A stretch of DNA of 64,000 nucleotides. Origin: Sulfuriferula sp. (GTDB lineage Bacteria; Pseudomonadota; Gammaproteobacteria; Burkholderiales; Sulfuriferulaceae). The stretch spans positions 1 to 64,000 of the forward strand of contig JABFSE010000012.1 of assembly GCA_013140765.1 (NCBI GenBank), in the 5' to 3' direction. The position numbers and the translations under genes were made by a program. A model generated the notes under the pieces. That model had not been told where the DNA came from and did no database searches. It worked only from the letters and a program-made list of their open reading frames with translations. Each line of letters begins with the position of its first letter. Within the stretch, counting starts at the first letter, position 1. Below, one piece after another: positions 52,833-64,000 of the stretch.

Positions 52833-53918
52833 CTACTTCACGTAATACATAAAATTCTGATACGGTGCTTCTGCTACTTTGAACCATTGAATTTCACTGT
52901 CGCGGAATTTTTTCCATTCGGTATAAATTTTCTTGAAGGCTGGATTTTTTGCTGATTCTTCATCGTACATCGCAAATGCCGCTTGGCGGGCGGCGAGCAT
53001 GACATCTTTGGGGAAAGGATGTATTTGTACACCTTGTTGCACTAAACGCATCAAAGCGGGCGGATTTTTACTGTCGTATTGCGCCAGCATCATGGCGTTG
53101 GCTTCCATCGTCGCGACTTCAAAAGCCTGACGATATAACTCAGGCAAAGCGTTCCATTTGTCGATATTCACCATAAAGCTCAGTTGCGGACCGCCCTCCC
53201 ACCAGCCTGGATAGTAGTAATGCTTGGCAATTTTGTAAAAACCCAACTTTTCATCATCGTAAGGTCCTACCCATTCTGCCGCATCCAGCGCACCGCGCTC
53301 TAAGGCAGGATAAATATCGCCGCCAGGTAAGGTTTGTGGCACGGCACCTAACTTAGCCATGATTTTGCCACCCAAGCCAGGAATACGCATTTTCAGCCCT
53401 TTTAGGTCTGCCAATGATTTAATTTCATGACGGAACCAGCCGCCCATTTGTGTGCCTGTATTACCGCCTGGAAACTGCATGATATTGTAGTTCTTGAAAA
53501 ACTCACGCATCAATTGCAAGCCGCCACCTGCGTACATCCACGCGTTTTGCTGGCGGGCAGTCAAACCAAATGGCACAGCGCAATCAAACGCGAACGCCAT
53601 ATTTTTACCCACATAATAATAGCTGGCAGTATGTCCGCACTCTACCGTCGCATTTTGCACCGCATCGAGCACCTGTAAACCTGGCACTAACTCGCCACCC
53701 GCGAATACGCGAATCTGAAATTTACCATTGGTCAACGCCGCTACACGTTTAGATAAAATCTCGGCCGCGCCATAAATCGTATCCAAACTTTTGGGAAAGC
53801 TGGAAGCCAAGCGCCAGTTAATCACGGGCGTATCCGCCGCGAGTGCTGATGCAGGTATCGCACTCAAACCAGCCAAGCTCGCCCCAGCCGCACCTTTAAT
53901 AAAATCTCGACGTTGCAT
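52833..53918 (-). CDS. TRAP transporter substrate-binding protein, DctP/TakP family, Tat-type signal
   Basis: MQRRDFIKGAAGASLAGLSAIPASALAA; WRLASSFPKSLDTIYGAAEILSKRVAALTNGKFQIRVFAGGELVPG. Confidence 0.88.
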   Translation of the reverse strand: MQRRDFIKGAAGASLAGLSAIPASALAADTPVINWRLASSFPKSLDTIYGAAEILSKRVAALTNGKFQIRVFAGGELVPGLQVLDAVQNATVECGHTASYYYVGKNMAFAFDCAVPFGLTARQQNAWMYAGGGLQLMREFFKNYNIMQFPGGNTGTQMGGWFRHEIKSLADLKGLKMRIPGLGGKIMAKLGAVPQTLPGGDIYPALERGALDAAEWVGPYDDEKLGFYKIAKHYYYPGWWEGGPQLSFMVNIDKWNALPELYRQAFEVATMEANAMMLAQYDSKNPPALMRLVQQGVQIHPFPKDVMLAARQAAFAMYDEESAKNPAFKKIYTEWKKFRDSEIQWFKVAEAPYQNFMYYVK

Positions 53919-55836: not shown

Positions 55837-56259
55837 TTAGCGATTACATTTACCCTTACGGCTTTGTACCCAGCCATAAAGATACGTGCCTGCGATTACA
55901 CCCAGCAAAGTAGGCACGATAATCAGTTTACCCTCACCTAGCATCGCAGGCGCAGAGCCTGGACAAGATCCTGTAATTGCCCAGCCTGCGCCAAATAACA
56001 AAGATCCCAACACCCAATGTTTAGGCAAGGATTTAGTTTCGAATTTAATGCGTTCAGCCGTCATCACAGCACGTGCTTGCACGCGCTTCATTAAAAATAT
56101 GCCTATCGATCCCACTATCACTGCCGAAATAATAACGCGAGATAACTGCATGTTTTGAAACTGGAAGAGTTGCGCATAAAAATCAAATGTCGTTGCGCCT
56201 GCCAAACTCAACAACAAGCCAAACATCACACCCAATATTACATAAACTAACTGATTCAT
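55837..56259 (-). CDS. YeeE/YedE family (DUF6691-like) membrane protein
   Basis: Four-TM protein with GSCPGSAPAMLGEGK motif; paired with the adjacent YeeE gene. Confidence 0.82.
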   Translation of the reverse strand: MNQLVYVILGVMFGLLLSLAGATTFDFYAQLFQFQNMQLSRVIISAVIVGSIGIFLMKRVQARAVMTAERIKFETKSLPKHWVLGSLLFGAGWAITGSCPGSAPAMLGEGKLIIVPTLLGVIAGTYLYGWVQSRKGKCNR

Positions 56260-56756
56260 GGCAATATCACCCGCGTTATCAACTGCATAGTTACTATCCC
56301 GCCGACAAAAAACAACAACCCCGCCAACACGCTACCCAAATTCATCATGGGAATACCCGTAATTACATGCCCACTGGTACAACCGCCCGCTATCCGTGCG
56401 CCTATCCCCATAATCAACCCGCCACAGAACAGCACCACTATGCGCCAGCTTAAATCGGCTGGCAATATCGCATCGTAAGCCTTACCCATAGTAAAATCAG
56501 GCACATAAACACCAGGATGAGCAATCATCGCCGCAAGAAAGCCGCCCAAAACGATGCCTAAAACGAACCATAACCGCCAATGATTATGGGTGTAGTCTGC
56601 CTGCCTGAAAAAATCCAGCTTAGACACGCTAGACAACAAATTACCGTAAGCACGAGAAACCCCTAACTGCTTGCCCGTAATCCAATAAAACGCCACCATC
56701 AGCACGCCTATTCCAGCACCTGCTAACCATGATGGCCAAATAACAACTGCGTGCAT
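56256..56756 (-). CDS. YeeE/YedE family sulfur-transport-type membrane protein
   Basis: GGCTSGHVITGIPMMNLGS motif. Confidence 0.82.
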   Translation of the reverse strand: MHAVVIWPSWLAGAGIGVLMVAFYWITGKQLGVSRAYGNLLSSVSKLDFFRQADYTHNHWRLWFVLGIVLGGFLAAMIAHPGVYVPDFTMGKAYDAILPADLSWRIVVLFCGGLIMGIGARIAGGCTSGHVITGIPMMNLGSVLAGLLFFVGGIVTMQLITRVILP

Positions 56757-56829
56757 ACTATGCTCCCCATTGATTGATATTAGTATGTGAGACCTTGAAC
56801 ACTACGACCATATATACCTATTGACGCGC

Positions 56830-58587
56830 TTAATAATTCGGTTGCACCACGCCTTTTAATGGCTGAATTTCCTTACTTGCCGAAATCGCATTAGGCAGTG
56901 GCGACATTAAATGCACCCGATTTAACCTTGGATTAACGGTATGGTCAGGCAACATATACAGGTAATACGCGACGACATCCGTTGCATCTAAAATACCGCC
57001 ATCTTTATCCTTCAGCACGTTAATATCCCAGGCTTTATGGCGGTTAATCATATTAGGATTATCTACGTACCAATAGCCACCGACGGTATAAAGTTTTTCC
57101 ATATCAATCAAACCACTGCCATCTAGGCGTATGTTGTTGACACGATTACCGTAGGATTTTTTAGGGTCTAATTCATAGCTCAGTCCAGAAAAAGCAATTT
57201 GCCAACCACCACCCCACCAACCCACATATGGCGATAGCGAGGAGTCAGCACCGCGCTCTAACATCCAACGTATGTCATCACCGGACAGCTTGCCACAAGC
57301 GACTTGCGGGCCTATAGGAATATAGTGATAAATATCTTCTAGCTTAATTGGACCAGGAGCAATATGCGTACCGTAGCGGAAGCCCCGCATCAAGCCCAAA
57401 TCAGCATGACAAGCCTCACGAAAAGCATCCGCAATAAAATCATGTGACGAACCCTCTATCACCGCATTCATACCACTAGACCCTGCAAAGTTAGAACGAT
57501 GTAGCGCGACTTTTGTAAAACCGATCACGCTATCTATAGGCGTGCGCAATATCGCCGCGTTAATTGGATTAACGTGGGTGACAAAACCTGCTTTAACAAA
57601 AGGCTTGCGTATTTCTTCTATTTTCGCAGCAATGACGGGATCAGGCTGGTTATTTTTAGTGGTAATTCTATGTTGCTTCCAACTATAACCCGTCATCTTG
57701 CCATTACTAACATGGGCAGTCAGTTCACCTAATACCGTACCGTCTTGCCCCTCTTCAACCAAGATAGTGCCTGACTTTGCCACCAATTCTTTACGCGACT
57801 CTTCGTGCATATCAGACGACAGGACGATGTCTATACCGGGGATAGTTTCGGCAATTTCCAAATTTGCGCCCAAACCGCGCTCTGAAATCAACACGATTAA
57901 ATCCACTTTATGTTTATTACGTAACAACGGCACTGCGGCGGCCACTTCAAATTCACCGGGTGTCATGGTAAAGCCATCCATCACCCGTGTACTCACGGCT
58001 TGCGGACCACGGTCGGCTGTCAAACCAATAATCCCCACCCGCACACCATTGACATCTTTAATCATGTACGGTTTCAAGACCCGCTGCCCAGCTTGCTTGG
58101 CATAGCGCGTTTCAGGAAAACCATACAGGGTTGAATAATATAAATTGGCTGATAATGCGTTCCAATTTGCCAACGGCTTATCACCTGCAAATAGCTCACG
58201 AAAACGCTCAGTGCCGTATAAATAATCCCAATTACCAGGGTTAAATGCGTCTATTTTGAACAAGTTCAAAATATCAACCATCGCCTGCCCGCGTGTGTAT
58301 AAGGCTTCGGCTGACCCTTGTATGGTATCGCCGCCGTTAATCAACAAGGCATTGGGATGTTCTTTGCGGATTTTTTTGACTTGGTCATATACATACGCCA
58401 AACCACCCATCATCTGCCCTTGATCAGGGTCACCCTCACGCATATTAGGGCGCGGAATTAAATGCCCGTGCAAATCGCCCATATGGATGAACGTCACATC
58501 ACCGCTCCCTGCTGCATTTGCACTCACAGGGGCTATCAGCGTAGCAATACAGATGCTGATTATTTTTGTTTTAAGCTGTCTAAACAT
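56830..58587 (-). CDS. SoxB-like 5'-nucleotidase/metallophosphoesterase superfamily protein
   Basis: Signal peptide; FIHMGDLHGHLIPRPN, LLINGGDTIQGSAEALYTRGQAM, GNWDYLYG; 5'-nucleotidase C-terminal domain. Confidence 0.8.
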   Translation of the reverse strand: MFRQLKTKIISICIATLIAPVSANAAGSGDVTFIHMGDLHGHLIPRPNMREGDPDQGQMMGGLAYVYDQVKKIRKEHPNALLINGGDTIQGSAEALYTRGQAMVDILNLFKIDAFNPGNWDYLYGTERFRELFAGDKPLANWNALSANLYYSTLYGFPETRYAKQAGQRVLKPYMIKDVNGVRVGIIGLTADRGPQAVSTRVMDGFTMTPGEFEVAAAVPLLRNKHKVDLIVLISERGLGANLEIAETIPGIDIVLSSDMHEESRKELVAKSGTILVEEGQDGTVLGELTAHVSNGKMTGYSWKQHRITTKNNQPDPVIAAKIEEIRKPFVKAGFVTHVNPINAAILRTPIDSVIGFTKVALHRSNFAGSSGMNAVIEGSSHDFIADAFREACHADLGLMRGFRYGTHIAPGPIKLEDIYHYIPIGPQVACGKLSGDDIRWMLERGADSSLSPYVGWWGGGWQIAFSGLSYELDPKKSYGNRVNNIRLDGSGLIDMEKLYTVGGYWYVDNPNMINRHKAWDINVLKDKDGGILDATDVVAYYLYMLPDHTVNPRLNRVHLMSPLPNAISASKEIQPLKGVVQPNY

Positions 58588-58613
58588 CGATATATCCAAT
58601 ATAACCAGCGTCT

Positions 58614-59036
58614 TTAAGGACGCACGTAAGACCAACCCAGCTTTTGTTTTTCCATGATTTCAACTACGCCTGACGGCACGTAACTGACATCACGCAACAT
58701 GTCCGAAGGGCGCAACTTAGCCGCACGCATAGAATAATCACAAACAACAATACGAATACCGTTGTATTTTTCCTGCTTCACCCGTTCAGGAATAGGTTTA
58801 GGCGCGTAGTATTTCAGCGTTTGCACACCAGGGCCGAACACCACAATTTCAACTTCCACATTAGGCGCACCATACTGCGCTTGGACAAATTTAGCCGCAT
58901 TCAAGGCAGAATTAAGCTGCTCTATACTGTCTTCGCTGACTTGAATTAACAAGTGTTCTTTCACTTGCTCAGCGGCATGTCCGACTAAACTCATGCTTGC
59001 CAACAGCAACGCCAATCCCAATGATTTTAATTTCAT
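58614..59036 (-). CDS. Secreted DsrE/F-like protein with a single cysteine
   Basis: Signal peptide ...SLVGHAAEQ; DsrE-like core ending IRIVVCDYSMRAAKLRPSDML. Confidence 0.75.
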   Translation of the reverse strand: MKLKSLGLALLLASMSLVGHAAEQVKEHLLIQVSEDSIEQLNSALNAAKFVQAQYGAPNVEVEIVVFGPGVQTLKYYAPKPIPERVKQEKYNGIRIVVCDYSMRAAKLRPSDMLRDVSYVPSGVVEIMEKQKLGWSYVRP

Positions 59037-59054
59037 CTTAATTTCTCCTCTTAA

Positions 59055-60791
59055 TCAAACTGTATGCGCGTTCAACGTTGTATCCACGGGAGCGGCAGAT
59101 TTAACGCGCCCACTACAATAAATATAATCTTTACCAATCGTTGCTTCTAAAATTTGCGCCACTTGTACATCGCCCGTCAGCACACCTTCACGCACCCACA
59201 AACTTAACTGGTAACCATTTTTCTTACGTTTCACAGCCTCTTGTGCAATCACCTCGGCCGCCGCAACGTCCACGCCGTTGAGATACTCGCCCATGACCAC
59301 CAAATTAGCTTTACGCATATCGTCTTTTGCTACATCCATAAACGCACGTTCGATATTTTGTGTAGAGCCGAAGAACAAATTGCCAGAAATCGCAATGGCC
59401 GTGGTGTCATCCACCGTCATTTTTCCTGTTAAATACTGACGTTTTTCTTGCTCAAACAGCACTTCAAAGCCAGGCTTGGAAATGGTGCGTAAATAACCCG
59501 CAATAGATAAGAAAATACCTAAATAAACACCGTCATCAACACCGCTAAACAGTGTCGTCAATAAAACCAGCACAAACACTACACGCCCACCGCCTTTAAT
59601 CGCGAGCAAGTGACGAATATCTTTTACTTTTACCAACGCCGCACCCACTAAGAACAGCACCCCTGCCATCACAGGCACTGGCAAATAAGCAATTACAGGT
59701 GCGGCAACAAACACCAGCACTGCCAGCGCAAATGCTGAAATCAAGCCTGCCAAAGGCGTTTTTGCGCCAGCCTCTATGTTAGCCGCACTGCGATTAAACG
59801 AACCGCAGCTGGTAAAGCAGGATAAGAAACTCCCTGCCACATTAGATAAACCCTGCCCGATAACTTCTTGGTTAATATCCAAGCCCTGCTGACCTGATTT
59901 AGCCGCCATGGATCGCGCAATCACAGACGACTGCATTAGACCCAACACTGCCATACCCATCGCCGCAGGATAAGCAAAGTTAGCAAACGGGCCAAAGTTC
60001 TCAGGTGAAAAATCAGGGGCAGAGAACGGCACTGCAGTAAATTTCATGTAACCCAGCATATCTATATGCGCAGTTGCACTACCCACTAACATGCCCAATA
60101 TCCAGGCAGTTAGCATACCAACCCCAACTGCCATAATGTAATGCGGCCACTTTGGGCGCAACCGTTTAATCAGCAAGCCTGACACCACTGTAATCACACC
60201 AACCATGACCGCATATGGATTCGCACGCGAGAAGGCAAACATAATCTGCATCAACACTTGATCCAGCGTCTCATTGAGGTTCATCACCACCCCCAAAAAG
60301 TTACCCACCTGTTGAATCACAATAATGATGCCCACACCCGTGACCAATGCCACCATCACCGTATGTGAAAAATAATTAAACACCACGCCCAATCGCAACA
60401 CACCAAATAGCAATTGCAAAATACCTGCCATAAACGTCAAGGTAATCGCATATTGCACATAATCAGGTGAGCCTATATTGGCAAATGGGGCTATCGTCAT
60501 CGCCGTCAACACTGCCAGCGCAGTATTCGGTCCCGACAATGAATGCCATGACGAACCATACAAAGCGGTAATAATGACAGGAAAAATAGCGGTATATAAA
60601 CCGTATTCAGGCGGCAAACCAGCCAGCGTTGCCAGCGCAATCGCTTGTGGCAAAATCAACACACCCGCAGTAATCCCCGCGATGGTATCGTTACGCACTG
60701 TGGCGCGATCCAACAACGACCACCAAGCCATAAACGGGAATAAAGCATTACGCACACGCGTTGATTTAAGCGTAGACTTCACCATCATCAA
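59055..60791 (-). CDS. SulP-family anion transporter
   Basis: AGITAGVLILPQAIALATLAGLPPEYGLYTAIFPVIITALYGSS; C-terminal cytosolic STAS-region. Confidence 0.9.
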   Translation of the reverse strand: MMMVKSTLKSTRVRNALFPFMAWWSLLDRATVRNDTIAGITAGVLILPQAIALATLAGLPPEYGLYTAIFPVIITALYGSSWHSLSGPNTALAVLTAMTIAPFANIGSPDYVQYAITLTFMAGILQLLFGVLRLGVVFNYFSHTVMVALVTGVGIIIVIQQVGNFLGVVMNLNETLDQVLMQIMFAFSRANPYAVMVGVITVVSGLLIKRLRPKWPHYIMAVGVGMLTAWILGMLVGSATAHIDMLGYMKFTAVPFSAPDFSPENFGPFANFAYPAAMGMAVLGLMQSSVIARSMAAKSGQQGLDINQEVIGQGLSNVAGSFLSCFTSCGSFNRSAANIEAGAKTPLAGLISAFALAVLVFVAAPVIAYLPVPVMAGVLFLVGAALVKVKDIRHLLAIKGGGRVVFVLVLLTTLFSGVDDGVYLGIFLSIAGYLRTISKPGFEVLFEQEKRQYLTGKMTVDDTTAIAISGNLFFGSTQNIERAFMDVAKDDMRKANLVVMGEYLNGVDVAAAEVIAQEAVKRKKNGYQLSLWVREGVLTGDVQVAQILEATIGKDYIYCSGRVKSAAPVDTTLNAHTV

Positions 60792-61735
60792 CCCTCCGTC
60801 ACAGGCATAAAGATACTCATAAACATTCCTTTACGCGGATCCCACGGTCTGTCTTGCATAAAGATATGCACACAGACATCCAACGCCTCATCATCATTTA
60901 AGACGTGCGACTTACCTAGCGGCATATTTGCCTTCACAAAGCCGGCACATGTTTTTACTTTATACATCCCTGCTCCCTTGTTATAACTATCAGGACCCGC
61001 TAGAGGTGGGAACATATAGCCTGGACGATTGGTGAATTTCTTACCCATCAAATCATCACCATGGCAACTGGCGCAATAGGCTTTGTAATGCACTGCGCCA
61101 TTAAAGGGAGACGGGTCTTCAGTTTTATCAATACGCGCAAAACCACGTCCCGCCATTAACGTCCCCGTCGGTATGCCTGTAGATAACCATTGCGCATAAA
61201 CTGTCAACGCCTCAACTTCACGCGAGTCCAAAGTCGGTGCCATGCCGTTCATACTAAAACGGAAGCAATCTTGCAGGCGTTCTTGAAAGCTAATCACCTG
61301 ACGGCTCTTATCGCGATACATAGGGTATAGCGGATACGCAGCCCACAACGGTGCAGCGTGCGGCTTACGACCTTCTTGCAAGTGACAATTAGCACAATTC
61401 AAACCGTTGCCCACATAACGTTTGGCATATTCTTGCGTATTGATAAAAATGTTACGCCCCAAACGTACCTCATCTGCATACTTGCTATCATCCAAATCTT
61501 CTAATTTGGGCGGTACAAAATACTCGCCTGGTTTAATAACAGGTACTATCGTTAGCTCATTAGGCAGACTTTCATGCGGACGCTGCATACTTACGTGCGT
61601 TTCCATAGCCTCTAATGTCGGCAAATCATCACCGCTATCAGGCGACTGCGTATCAGCCGCCACCCAAGTGCCAAACGCGATACCCGTCACAGCGACGACG
61701 GCGAGTGCATATTTATGTAATTTTGTGAATTTCAT
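60788..61735 (-). CDS. Dihaem cytochrome c, TsdA-like (copy A)
   Basis: CANCH and CASCH haem motifs; GNGLNCANCHLQEGR...APLWAAYPLYPMYR...DCFRFSMNGMAPTLDS. Confidence 0.82.
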   Translation of the reverse strand: MKFTKLHKYALAVVAVTGIAFGTWVAADTQSPDSGDDLPTLEAMETHVSMQRPHESLPNELTIVPVIKPGEYFVPPKLEDLDDSKYADEVRLGRNIFINTQEYAKRYVGNGLNCANCHLQEGRKPHAAPLWAAYPLYPMYRDKSRQVISFQERLQDCFRFSMNGMAPTLDSREVEALTVYAQWLSTGIPTGTLMAGRGFARIDKTEDPSPFNGAVHYKAYCASCHGDDLMGKKFTNRPGYMFPPLAGPDSYNKGAGMYKVKTCAGFVKANMPLGKSHVLNDDEALDVCVHIFMQDRPWDPRKGMFMSIFMPVTEG

Positions 61736-61747
61736 CTGCTCTATCCC

Positions 61748-62662
61748 TTAATTACCACCAGTAGGCGGAGCAAAAATGTTAAAGAACCAACCGAAACGCG
61801 GATCCCAAGGTCTATCTTGCAACCAGATATAGGTGCAAATATCCCATGCTTCCATATCTGTCAACGTCCAGCCTTTACCTAAGGGCATATTCGCCTTAGA
61901 AAACTGTGCGCAACTTTTGACTGAACTCATGCCTGCACCGTGATTGAACGAATCTTTACCCCATAAAGGTGGGAACATGTAACCATCACGATTAGTGAAT
62001 TTTTGTCCCGCGCCCTCAATACCATGACAGCTTGCACAACTCTCTTTGTACAGTTTTTCACCGTTGATCGGTGTTGGGTCACGCGGTTTACCTAAACGCG
62101 CAAAACCACGGCCTGGTAGCTCTTTATTAAACGGCGCACCCGTTGATAACCAATGCGCATACGAAGTAATGGCTTTTATTTCTGGAGAATCCAGCGTCGG
62201 CGCAATACCATTCATACTGAAGCGAAAGCAATCCTGCACTCGCTCTTCAAACGTCACCACATCACGCGTTTTATTACGAAACGCGGGATACATAGGGTAA
62301 GCCGCCCATAAAGGTCCCGCGTAGGCTTTACGCCCTTCTTGTAAATGGCAATTGCTGCAATTCAAACCATTACCCACATAACGCTTGGCGTAATGCTGCG
62401 TGTCTATAAAAATGTTACGCCCCAGCTTTACCATGTCGCCGTATTTACTGGTGGGAATATCACCGACTTCTGGCGGCACAAAGTATTCACCTGGACTGAT
62501 GGCAGGAATTTGACGTATGGCTTTTTCACGCGTCAAACCTGTAGGAATACTCGCGCGTGCATCATAGCTGTCGATTCTGACAGGGCTGGCAGTCAACGCA
62601 GTATCAACCGCAGACGCGAGCTGACTCAGACCCAATAGCAATAAGAAACTCAATCTTTTCAT
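61748..62662 (-). CDS. Dihaem cytochrome c, TsdA-like (copy B)
   Basis: CSNCH and CASCH; strongly similar to the downstream copy A. Confidence 0.82.
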   Translation of the reverse strand: MKRLSFLLLLGLSQLASAVDTALTASPVRIDSYDARASIPTGLTREKAIRQIPAISPGEYFVPPEVGDIPTSKYGDMVKLGRNIFIDTQHYAKRYVGNGLNCSNCHLQEGRKAYAGPLWAAYPMYPAFRNKTRDVVTFEERVQDCFRFSMNGIAPTLDSPEIKAITSYAHWLSTGAPFNKELPGRGFARLGKPRDPTPINGEKLYKESCASCHGIEGAGQKFTNRDGYMFPPLWGKDSFNHGAGMSSVKSCAQFSKANMPLGKGWTLTDMEAWDICTYIWLQDRPWDPRFGWFFNIFAPPTGGN

Positions 62663-62663
62663 C

Positions 62664-63431
62664 TTATTGTTGACCTTTTACCGTCAATGAACGATTGGCA
62701 TAATAAGCAGCCACATTCAGTTTATCCGCATCGGTAAGCTGATCTGCCACGGCTTTCATCAACCCCAAATTATCATTATCACGCTGACCTTGTTGCCATT
62801 TATTGATTTGATTGACGATATAAATTGAAGGTTGCCCCGCCAATGGTGGAAAATCAGCACCAAAACCCTCACCATCAGGCGCGTGGCAGGATACGCAAGC
62901 AGGCAAGCCGTATTCAGCTTTACCACGCAAAGCCAAATCTTGACCACGTTCCAATACTTGGTAATCAGCGGCTACAGGTATCGCGGTATAAGACAAACTG
63001 GCGTAATAAACTGCTAAATTATGTATATCAGCAACACTCAATTGTTTAGCAATCGGGCTCATAATGTCATCATGTCGCAAACCAGGGCTGAATACCGTCA
63101 AATCCGAATATATCCTAGGTGTTTTGCTATAGTCTTTAGCAACAGCTTCTATTGCCACACCTGCTGGCGGCAATTCACGGGCCAAGTCTTTTAATTGTTT
63201 TTCAATATATCCCGCATTTAATCCCGCTAACCGAGGATAACCAGCCGCCGCAATGCCTTCGCCATGCGCACCATGACAGGCAACGCAACCTGGTATCGCA
63301 TCACGTCCTTTTTCAGCCAGTTTTTGTCCTGCTTGTATTGCCGCTTGGTTGGCTTTCTCTTCTTTGCTGTCGCACCCAGACAAAGCAACAACCATCGCGC
63401 CCAATGCCACAATGAGCGATTTCTTAAACAT
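62664..63431 (-). CDS. Dihaem cytochrome c4/c553-like lipoprotein
   Basis: Lipobox LSGC in MFKKSLIVALGAMVVALSGCDSKEEKAN; CVACH and CVSCH. Confidence 0.8.
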   Translation of the reverse strand: MFKKSLIVALGAMVVALSGCDSKEEKANQAAIQAGQKLAEKGRDAIPGCVACHGAHGEGIAAAGYPRLAGLNAGYIEKQLKDLARELPPAGVAIEAVAKDYSKTPRIYSDLTVFSPGLRHDDIMSPIAKQLSVADIHNLAVYYASLSYTAIPVAADYQVLERGQDLALRGKAEYGLPACVSCHAPDGEGFGADFPPLAGQPSIYIVNQINKWQQGQRDNDNLGLMKAVADQLTDADKLNVAAYYANRSLTVKGQQ

Positions 63432-63518
63432 AGCTTGATCTCTATTTGCAGTTTGAAATTTCATATTCTTCACTTCTTTAATTGAACTATATGACACACC
63501 CGTCTCCCCTACATACAT

Positions 63519-64000
63519 CTATTCTGCCCCCACACCCACGCCTTTAAGTGGTTGTACGAACTCATTCACTGGCCACATTTTCGTTTGATGCACGTCCTCA
63601 ACATCATGCCGATTTTGTTTGCCTATCAAACCATTTTTTAAGCCATAAATGAACAAATCTGCCGCTGTCCAGGGTCTATTAGTGTCTGGATTGATGAGTG
63701 ACTCAACTGATTCAAACTCATCATAACTGCATAAAGTGGTGTCCGCTTTACTGTCAAAAGGTCGCGCACAACCTGTGACTGTCACTAGCTCATCAGGCAA
63801 TAATGGTCTGGCTTCATCTTTTAATTGCATGTCCAGCACACGACTACCATTAGGACGCGCCAAATCTAATTTTATTTTCAAACCTGACCAGCCGTCAGCC
63901 CAGCCACCCGACTGCTGGGCGATGTCCGTAGAAAACACACTAGTCAAATTATATTCAACGACTTTACGCAAACCTGCGCCTGTAATCGAGCCAGTCGCTA
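63519..64000 (-). CDS. C-terminal part of a second SoxB-like/5'-nucleotidase-family protein (truncated by window edge)
   Basis: Frame stays open to the window end (...ATGSITGAGLRKVVEYNLTS); C-terminus VQPLKGVG parallels IQPLKGVV of the SoxB-like protein at 56830-58587. Confidence 0.65.
   Translation of the reverse strand, partial: ATGSITGAGLRKVVEYNLTSVFSTDIAQQSGGWADGWSGLKIKLDLARPNGSRVLDMQLKDEARPLLPDELVTVTGCARPFDSKADTTLCSYDEFESVESLINPDTNRPWTAADLFIYGLKNGLIGKQNRHDVEDVHQTKMWPVNEFVQPLKGVGVGAE

Follow-up and report, generated by a model that had tools for sequence, protein, structure and literature searches.

A conserved TsdA-SulP-DsrE-SoxB-like gene cluster of Sulfuriferula as a candidate accessory thiosulfate/tetrathionate module in Sox-bearing bacteria

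Can secreted SoxB-like hydrolases, TsdA-like cytochromes, and a DsrE-like protein oxidize sulfur compounds in place of the SoxYZ carrier, or does such a gene set work beside the Sox system? The question arises from a 64,000-nucleotide stretch of a Sulfuriferula sp. genome (GenBank assembly GCA_013140765.1, contig JABFSE010000012.1, positions 1 to 64,000 of contig C28 in a 2.18 Mb, 40-contig assembly; hereafter the window), in which positions 55837-64000 hold nine consecutive minus-strand genes, with the composition that the original prediction had listed. Seeing neither SoxXA nor SoxYZ, that prediction proposed that the cytochromes load an oxidized sulfur group onto a cysteine of the DsrE-like protein and that the SoxB-like enzymes then release sulfate. 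The reading favored here, with a probability of roughly 0.55, is that the cluster would be an accessory periplasmic thiosulfate/tetrathionate module, with logic resembling an S4-intermediate pathway, in sulfur oxidizers that also encode Sox.

The row of genes continues beyond the window to contig position 69881, giving a 12-gene unit in the order OMP-RND-LolA-SoxBL1-TsdB(c4)-TsdA1-TsdA2-SulP-DsrE-SoxBL2-YeeE-YeeE, where OMP is a putative outer-membrane protein, TsdB a dihaem c4-type lipoprotein, and SoxBL1 and SoxBL2 the two SoxB-like proteins (Table 1). Five Sulfuriferula genomes share this order, apart from minor local differences such as the absence of a called RND gene in G160. No such cluster was seen in eight of the 13 genomes of the genus that were searched, so it is optional, and several of these eight have only weaker, canonical-SoxB-like matches. 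A scan of named genomes with an alignment of TsdA1 and TsdA2 returned 23 loci and revealed a five-gene core, TsdB-TsdA-SulP-DsrE-SoxBL2, with the same order across taxa. Outside Sulfuriferula, TsdA-SulP-DsrE-SoxBL2 is present in 15 of 16 cluster-type loci, counting DsrE genes found by tblastn, and the c4 gene accompanies it in all but one of these 15 (not called in L075); the sixteenth locus, from Halobeggiatoa, keeps only c4-TsdA-SulP. Carriers of the core include two Proteobacteria metagenome-assembled genomes (MAGs; SKS1 and SKS3), Thiosymbion oneisti, Thiotrichales BB2, two Thiohalobacter, several gammaproteobacterial MAGs, and the MAG Arcobacter NORP14. In one Thiohalobacter locus (L076), RND-LolA-OMP accompanies the core together with part of a SoxBL1 gene that runs off the end of the locus, and a 369-genome sample of the class added four further genomes with the cluster, one of them cut by a contig end. 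The SulP gene always adjoins a TsdA gene in cluster-type relatives, and the YeeE pair is kept in the Sulfuriferula genomes and Arcobacter NORP14, with weaker YeeE-type matches in Thiohalobacter. Retention of gene order both within Sulfuriferula (five genomes) and across distant taxa is far beyond chance, and because the core recurs in the same order across such distances, it is a real conserved module. Two expectations of the original prediction are supported: that the genes co-occur elsewhere, and that they form a conserved sulfur-oxidation cluster, mostly periplasmic and with enzymes of the TsdA type.

The idea, in the same prediction, that the set works in place of SoxYZ is not supported. 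The Sulfuriferula genome encodes a complete soxXYZAB set on contig C1, apart from the cluster contig, with the genome's one match to SoxY and its one match to SoxA over the family cut-off both on C1. Its true SoxB scores 898 bits against TIGR04486, for which the curated SoxB cut-off is 550 bits. No SoxC over its cut-off was found in this genome, so sulfane sulfur needs another route. SoxY is present in 19 of the 20 cluster-bearing genomes tested and canonical SoxB over the cut-off in 17 of 19; most cluster-bearing genomes are MAGs, and Sox absences among them are weak evidence. The cluster is unlinked to sox genes in every locus read. Extension of the right flank recovered the remainder of SoxBL1 and the LolA-like, RND/MMPL, and OMP-type genes, followed by unrelated genes, with no soxXYZA, which excludes a Sox set directly to the right of the window. 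The absence of SoxXA and SoxYZ thus holds for the cluster and its right flank and fails for the genome: "SoxYZ-less" describes the cluster, not the cell, and is misleading as a framing. Given the soxXYZAB set of this genome and the presence of SoxY and SoxB in nearly all carriers, the cluster supplements Sox rather than replacing it.

The two cytochromes are of the TsdA type, with predicted thiosulfate/tetrathionate activity. In phmmer searches, copy 1 matched the TsdBA fusion 5lo9 at 1.7e-56 and Allochromatium vinosum TsdA (4wq7) at 1.7e-46; 5lo9 is the M. purpuratum TsdB(A) protein (PMC9237845). Both Sulfuriferula copies have two CXXCH haem sites, and alignment to 4wq7 and 5lo9 shows that Cys145 (the haem-1 ligand), Arg141, Ser149, and Met259 (the haem-2 ligand) are kept in both, the Arg and Ser positions presumably being catalytic in TsdA. 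Lys131 is Arg in A. vinosum TsdA and Lys also in the M. purpuratum fusion, and Asn258 stands beside Met259 at haem 2, as in C. jejuni TsdA. All 23 cluster TsdA sequences in the tree form one clade (support 99/97), sister to M. purpuratum TsdBA and plasmid TsdAs, with copies 1 and 2 splitting inside the Sulfuriferula/SKS lineage. The c4 protein is dihaem and its gene immediately precedes tsdA in almost every relative, tsdB-tsdA being a known gene order (PMC9237845); only the Sulfuriferula/SKS forms showed a lipobox. Two relatives depart from the pattern: Arcobacter NORP14 TsdA (L073:9977-10903) has CTSFH at haem 1, one haem cysteine short through MAG error or real change, and a second, divergent TsdA of Thiotrichales BB2 (L069:9052-10002) has changed Arg and Ser positions near the Cys ligand (QIQACFLTA).

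The SoxB-like proteins are not canonical SoxB, an assignment ruled out by TIGR04486 scores of 219 bits (SoxBL2) and 172 bits (SoxBL1), both below the cut-off, together with their separate clades. In a 53-row tree with long branches and unsure deeper joins, 14 canonical SoxB proteins lie outside both SoxBL1 and SoxBL2, each of which is a group with 100/100 support, and the cluster SoxBL2 proteins make up a 17-row subgroup (100/100). The metal-site positions of SoxBL2 (Asp32, His34, Asp81, Asn113, Glu230, Asp253, and His255 in the numbering of alignment A2) are all invariant. A metal-site His of SoxB and nucleotidases is Glu in both SoxBL1 and SoxBL2, and a second is Asp in SoxBL2, yet all dinuclear-site positions retain metal-capable residues despite these replacements. 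Both proteins have GNWD where 5′-nucleotidases have GNHE, presumably the catalytic dyad of the latter, so that Trp replaces the nucleotidase catalytic His, as it does in SoxB. This replacement argues against a simple nucleotidase function, with no proof of sulfur chemistry. A fold search of the PDB with a SoxBL2 model (mean predicted local distance difference test score, pLDDT, 68.5) returned SoxB and 5′-nucleotidases as a tie and did not discriminate between them. The start codon of SoxBL2 probably lies downstream of the listed TTG. SoxBL2 relatives of ∼45-50% identity also occur without TsdA-SulP-DsrE neighbors in other genomes of the order (L050, L052-L059), including the same-genus genomes G256 and G395.

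Of the 21 DsrE proteins from clusters, 18 retain the single mature cysteine of the window protein. It is replaced, with no other mature cysteine, in those of Thiosymbion oneisti and Arcobacter NORP14, where this is the only DsrE found at the locus, and in one of two Thiotrichales copies. These losses make a universal covalent carrier role doubtful and weaken the proposed loading of an oxidized sulfur group onto the DsrE cysteine; its role may be non-covalent or confined to some lineages. A second secreted DsrE, divergent in sequence, occurs in the SKS1 lineage (L048:6807-7379, L063:17049-17621); it is 32% identical to that of the window and adjoins an OMP-like gene beside the cluster, and tblastn found a similar second DsrE in L064 (12364-12714). 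The two YeeE/YedE proteins are short, match PF04143, and have one conserved Cys motif each (GGCTSGH and GSCPG), the features given for PmpAB-type proteins, and PmpA and PmpB form a two-piece sulfur transporter (PMC11582611). Together the two appear to resemble such a transporter, sharing small size, motifs, and the Sulf_transp domain with the PmpAB/SoxT sulfur importers.

Gene content, order, conservation, active-site residues, and co-occurrence with canonical Sox are directly supported, and every reaction of the favored reading is inferred. From the conserved TsdA residues and the TsdB-TsdA arrangement, the pair would oxidize thiosulfate; the most likely product is tetrathionate, formed through an S-thiosulfonate on the cysteine that ligates haem 1, and electrons would pass through the c4 lipoprotein towards a terminal oxidase. 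SoxBL2, with SoxBL1 where present, may hydrolyze the sulfone-bearing product (tetrathionate or a longer or protein-bound polythionate) to release sulfate, as suggested by the SoxB-like fold, the loss of the phosphoesterase dyad, and the precedent of Erythrobacter flavus discussed below. The sulfane sulfur left over could be bound or handed on by DsrE, and the two YeeE proteins could bring sulfane sulfur or thiosulfate into the cytoplasm to be oxidized there. SulP may move an anionic product or substrate; more speculatively, RND-LolA-OMP might carry hydrophobic or polysulfide sulfur across the envelope. In a bolder and at present tentative version, SoxBL2 would be a novel type of sulfur hydrolase, its metal site altered by Glu and Asp, that cleaves tetrathionate or a DsrE-bound sulfur chain, and the core would provide an additional periplasmic thiosulfate/tetrathionate route alongside Sox in many sulfur bacteria, symbionts among them. 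Several points weigh against an oxidative module of this kind. The sub-cut-off scores and the equal ranking of 5′-nucleotidases leave another sulfur or phosphoester substrate possible for SoxBL1 and SoxBL2, sequence does not show whether TsdA runs as an oxidizing or a reducing enzyme, and in one study four Sulfuriferula isolates, which may or may not carry the cluster, failed to grow on tetrathionate (PMC12285272).

Three other explanations were weighed against such a module. The cluster might instead serve Sox itself, acting on SoxYZ-bound or Sox-derived intermediates or recycling tetrathionate that leaks from Sox, with no separate path; its near-complete co-occurrence with soxY and canonical soxB, and a Sox set that lacks a soxC over the cut-off, would fit. 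It is unlinked to sox genes at every locus read, however, and the several same-genus genomes without it argue that Sox does not need it, so that this explanation is credible but unlikely. Closest to the original prediction is a scheme that gives DsrE a role like that of SoxY, with TsdA-like cytochromes conjugating thiosulfate to its cysteine and SoxB-like enzymes freeing sulfate from it. The place of a secreted DsrE between SulP and SoxBL2 in the core and the widely kept cysteine are in its favor, as is the description of TsdA as a SoxA relative that forms a cysteine S-thiosulfonate intermediate (PMC4423706). It is made rather improbable by the DsrE proteins that have no mature cysteine at all and by the availability of SoxYZ in almost every carrier.

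Operation in reverse is the remaining alternative: the TsdA copies would reduce tetrathionate or another polythionate, and the SoxB-like proteins would be nucleotidase-like scavengers. The haem-2 Asn-Met pair matches that of C. jejuni TsdA, a tetrathionate reductase (PMC5146829), and the fold search did not separate SoxB from 5′-nucleotidases. The same pair occurs, though, in the oxidation-biased M. purpuratum enzyme, which lies nearer in the tree, SoxBL1 and SoxBL2 carry Trp at the nucleotidase catalytic His, and the SulP and YeeE transporters fit sulfur oxidation, all of which leaves a reductive cluster quite improbable.

Among known systems, the cluster is closest in logic to the published TsdA and SoxB pathway of Erythrobacter flavus 21-3, which bypasses SoxYZ. 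In that strain, thiosulfate induces a cluster that encodes TsdA, a TsdB-like protein, and three proteins resembling SoxB; sulfur globules from thiosulfate almost disappear on deletion of tsdA and of one of the soxB-like genes, and the proposed sequence is thiosulfate to tetrathionate to sulfate and zero-valent sulfur (PMC7608252). The likeness is at family level and lies in a single cluster that combines TsdA, a TsdB-like cytochrome encoded upstream of it, and several SoxB-like proteins, the SoxB proteins being compared by description only. The E. flavus pathway is described as SoxYZ-independent with a sulfur dioxygenase in the cluster, whereas the Sulfuriferula genome has SoxYZ, and the fixed TsdB-TsdA-SulP-DsrE-SoxBL2 order is a feature of the present cluster. 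With the TsdBA proteins of A. vinosum and M. purpuratum it shares the haem motifs, the Cys ligand, the Arg/Ser/Lys positions, the Met haem-2 ligand, and the upstream c4 partner; it differs in the two tandem TsdA copies of Sulfuriferula and the SKS1/SKS3 MAG lineage, in the operon context with SulP, DsrE, and SoxB-like genes, and in its separate clade. From canonical SoxB, with which they share fold, domain order, and the Trp, the SoxB-like proteins are set apart by GNWD in place of GHWE as well as by scores, clades, and metal-site changes. Plasmids of Blastomonas, Bradyrhizobium, Bosea, and Pontibacter each hold overlapping inventories of TsdA, SoxB-like, YeeE, DsrE, and SulP genes, but in other orders and with TsdA and SoxB-like proteins of other clades. 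On Pontibacter akesuensis plasmid Paks1 (Bacteroidota; L091:6630-16245), a TsdA-like cytochrome gene occurs with three SoxB/5′-nucleotidase-like genes, a rhodanese, a putative sulfate exporter, and DsrE. A literature search for the combined gene set, with most subscription papers and all bioRxiv preprints outside its coverage, found no description of the exact operon. The claim that no described pathway has this composition has to be qualified by the E. flavus pathway; what sets the operon apart is the fixed gene order, the separate clades, and the presence beside Sox.

The junctions between genes measure -23 to +74 bp throughout, which makes a single operon of the nine genes plausible; a promoter and terminator scan found no clear excess over shuffled sequences. 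The supposedly truncated SoxB-like gene is cut only by the window end and is complete on the contig.

Table 1. Genes of the cluster on contig C28, within and beyond the window
Product	Position	Strand	Remarks
YeeE/YedE half-transporter b	55837..56259	-	140 aa, DUF6691/Sulf_transp; Pfam PF04143 and PF20398; Cys in GSCPG
YeeE/YedE half-transporter a	56256..56756	-	166 aa; Pfam PF04143, weak NCBIfam TsuA; Cys in GGCTSGH
SoxB-like 2 (SoxBL2), predicted secreted metallophosphoesterase-fold hydrolase	56830..58635	-	TIGR04486 219 bits
Secreted DsrE-like protein, one mature Cys (VVCDYSM)	58614..59036	-	Pfam PF02635
SulP-family anion permease	59055..60791	-	Pfam PF00916, TIGR00815
TsdA-type dihaem cytochrome copy 2 (TsdL2, TsdA2)	60788..61735	-	PF21342 and CBB3; active-site residues kept
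TsdA-type dihaem cytochrome copy 1 (TsdL1, TsdA1)	61748..62662	-	phmmer, residues, tree
Dihaem c4-type lipoprotein, TsdB-like	62664..63518	-	Two CXXCH motifs and lipobox
SoxB-like 1 (SoxBL1)	63519..64000 in window (C-terminal part); complete at 63519-65330	-	603 aa
LolA-like, beyond window	65349-66173	-	PF17131
RND/MMPL exporter, HAE3 type, beyond window	66151-68457	-	
Putative outer-membrane-type protein, beyond window	68532-69881	-	No Pfam match

The last product in the table is taken to be an outer-membrane protein; its single-sequence structure model was unusable (pLDDT 31). An ArsR-type regulator with a rhodanese domain is encoded divergently and directly upstream of the cluster in two relatives, and none was seen adjoining the operon of the window. 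Other ArsR-type repressors are known to control sulfur oxidation (PMC12423496, PMC10451225), and by analogy this neighbor would fit sulfane-sulfur control. Proteins of ∼1000 amino acids encoded upstream in several relatives are PKD/FG-GAP and Calx-beta surface proteins, with a multihaem protein in Halobeggiatoa; they are not conserved with the core and were rejected as members. Close to the cluster, on the minus strand (window 52833-53918), is an isolated gene for a DctP-type TRAP solute-binding protein.

If the favored reading is true, the cluster would supply named candidate enzymes for tetrathionate turnover in near-neutral-pH, Sox-bearing bacteria and in symbionts such as Thiosymbion. Genome and metagenome surveys can easily mislabel genes of this kind as "Sox" or "5′-nucleotidase", which would skew estimates of sulfur-oxidation potential, and the question is testable in cultured Sulfuriferula.

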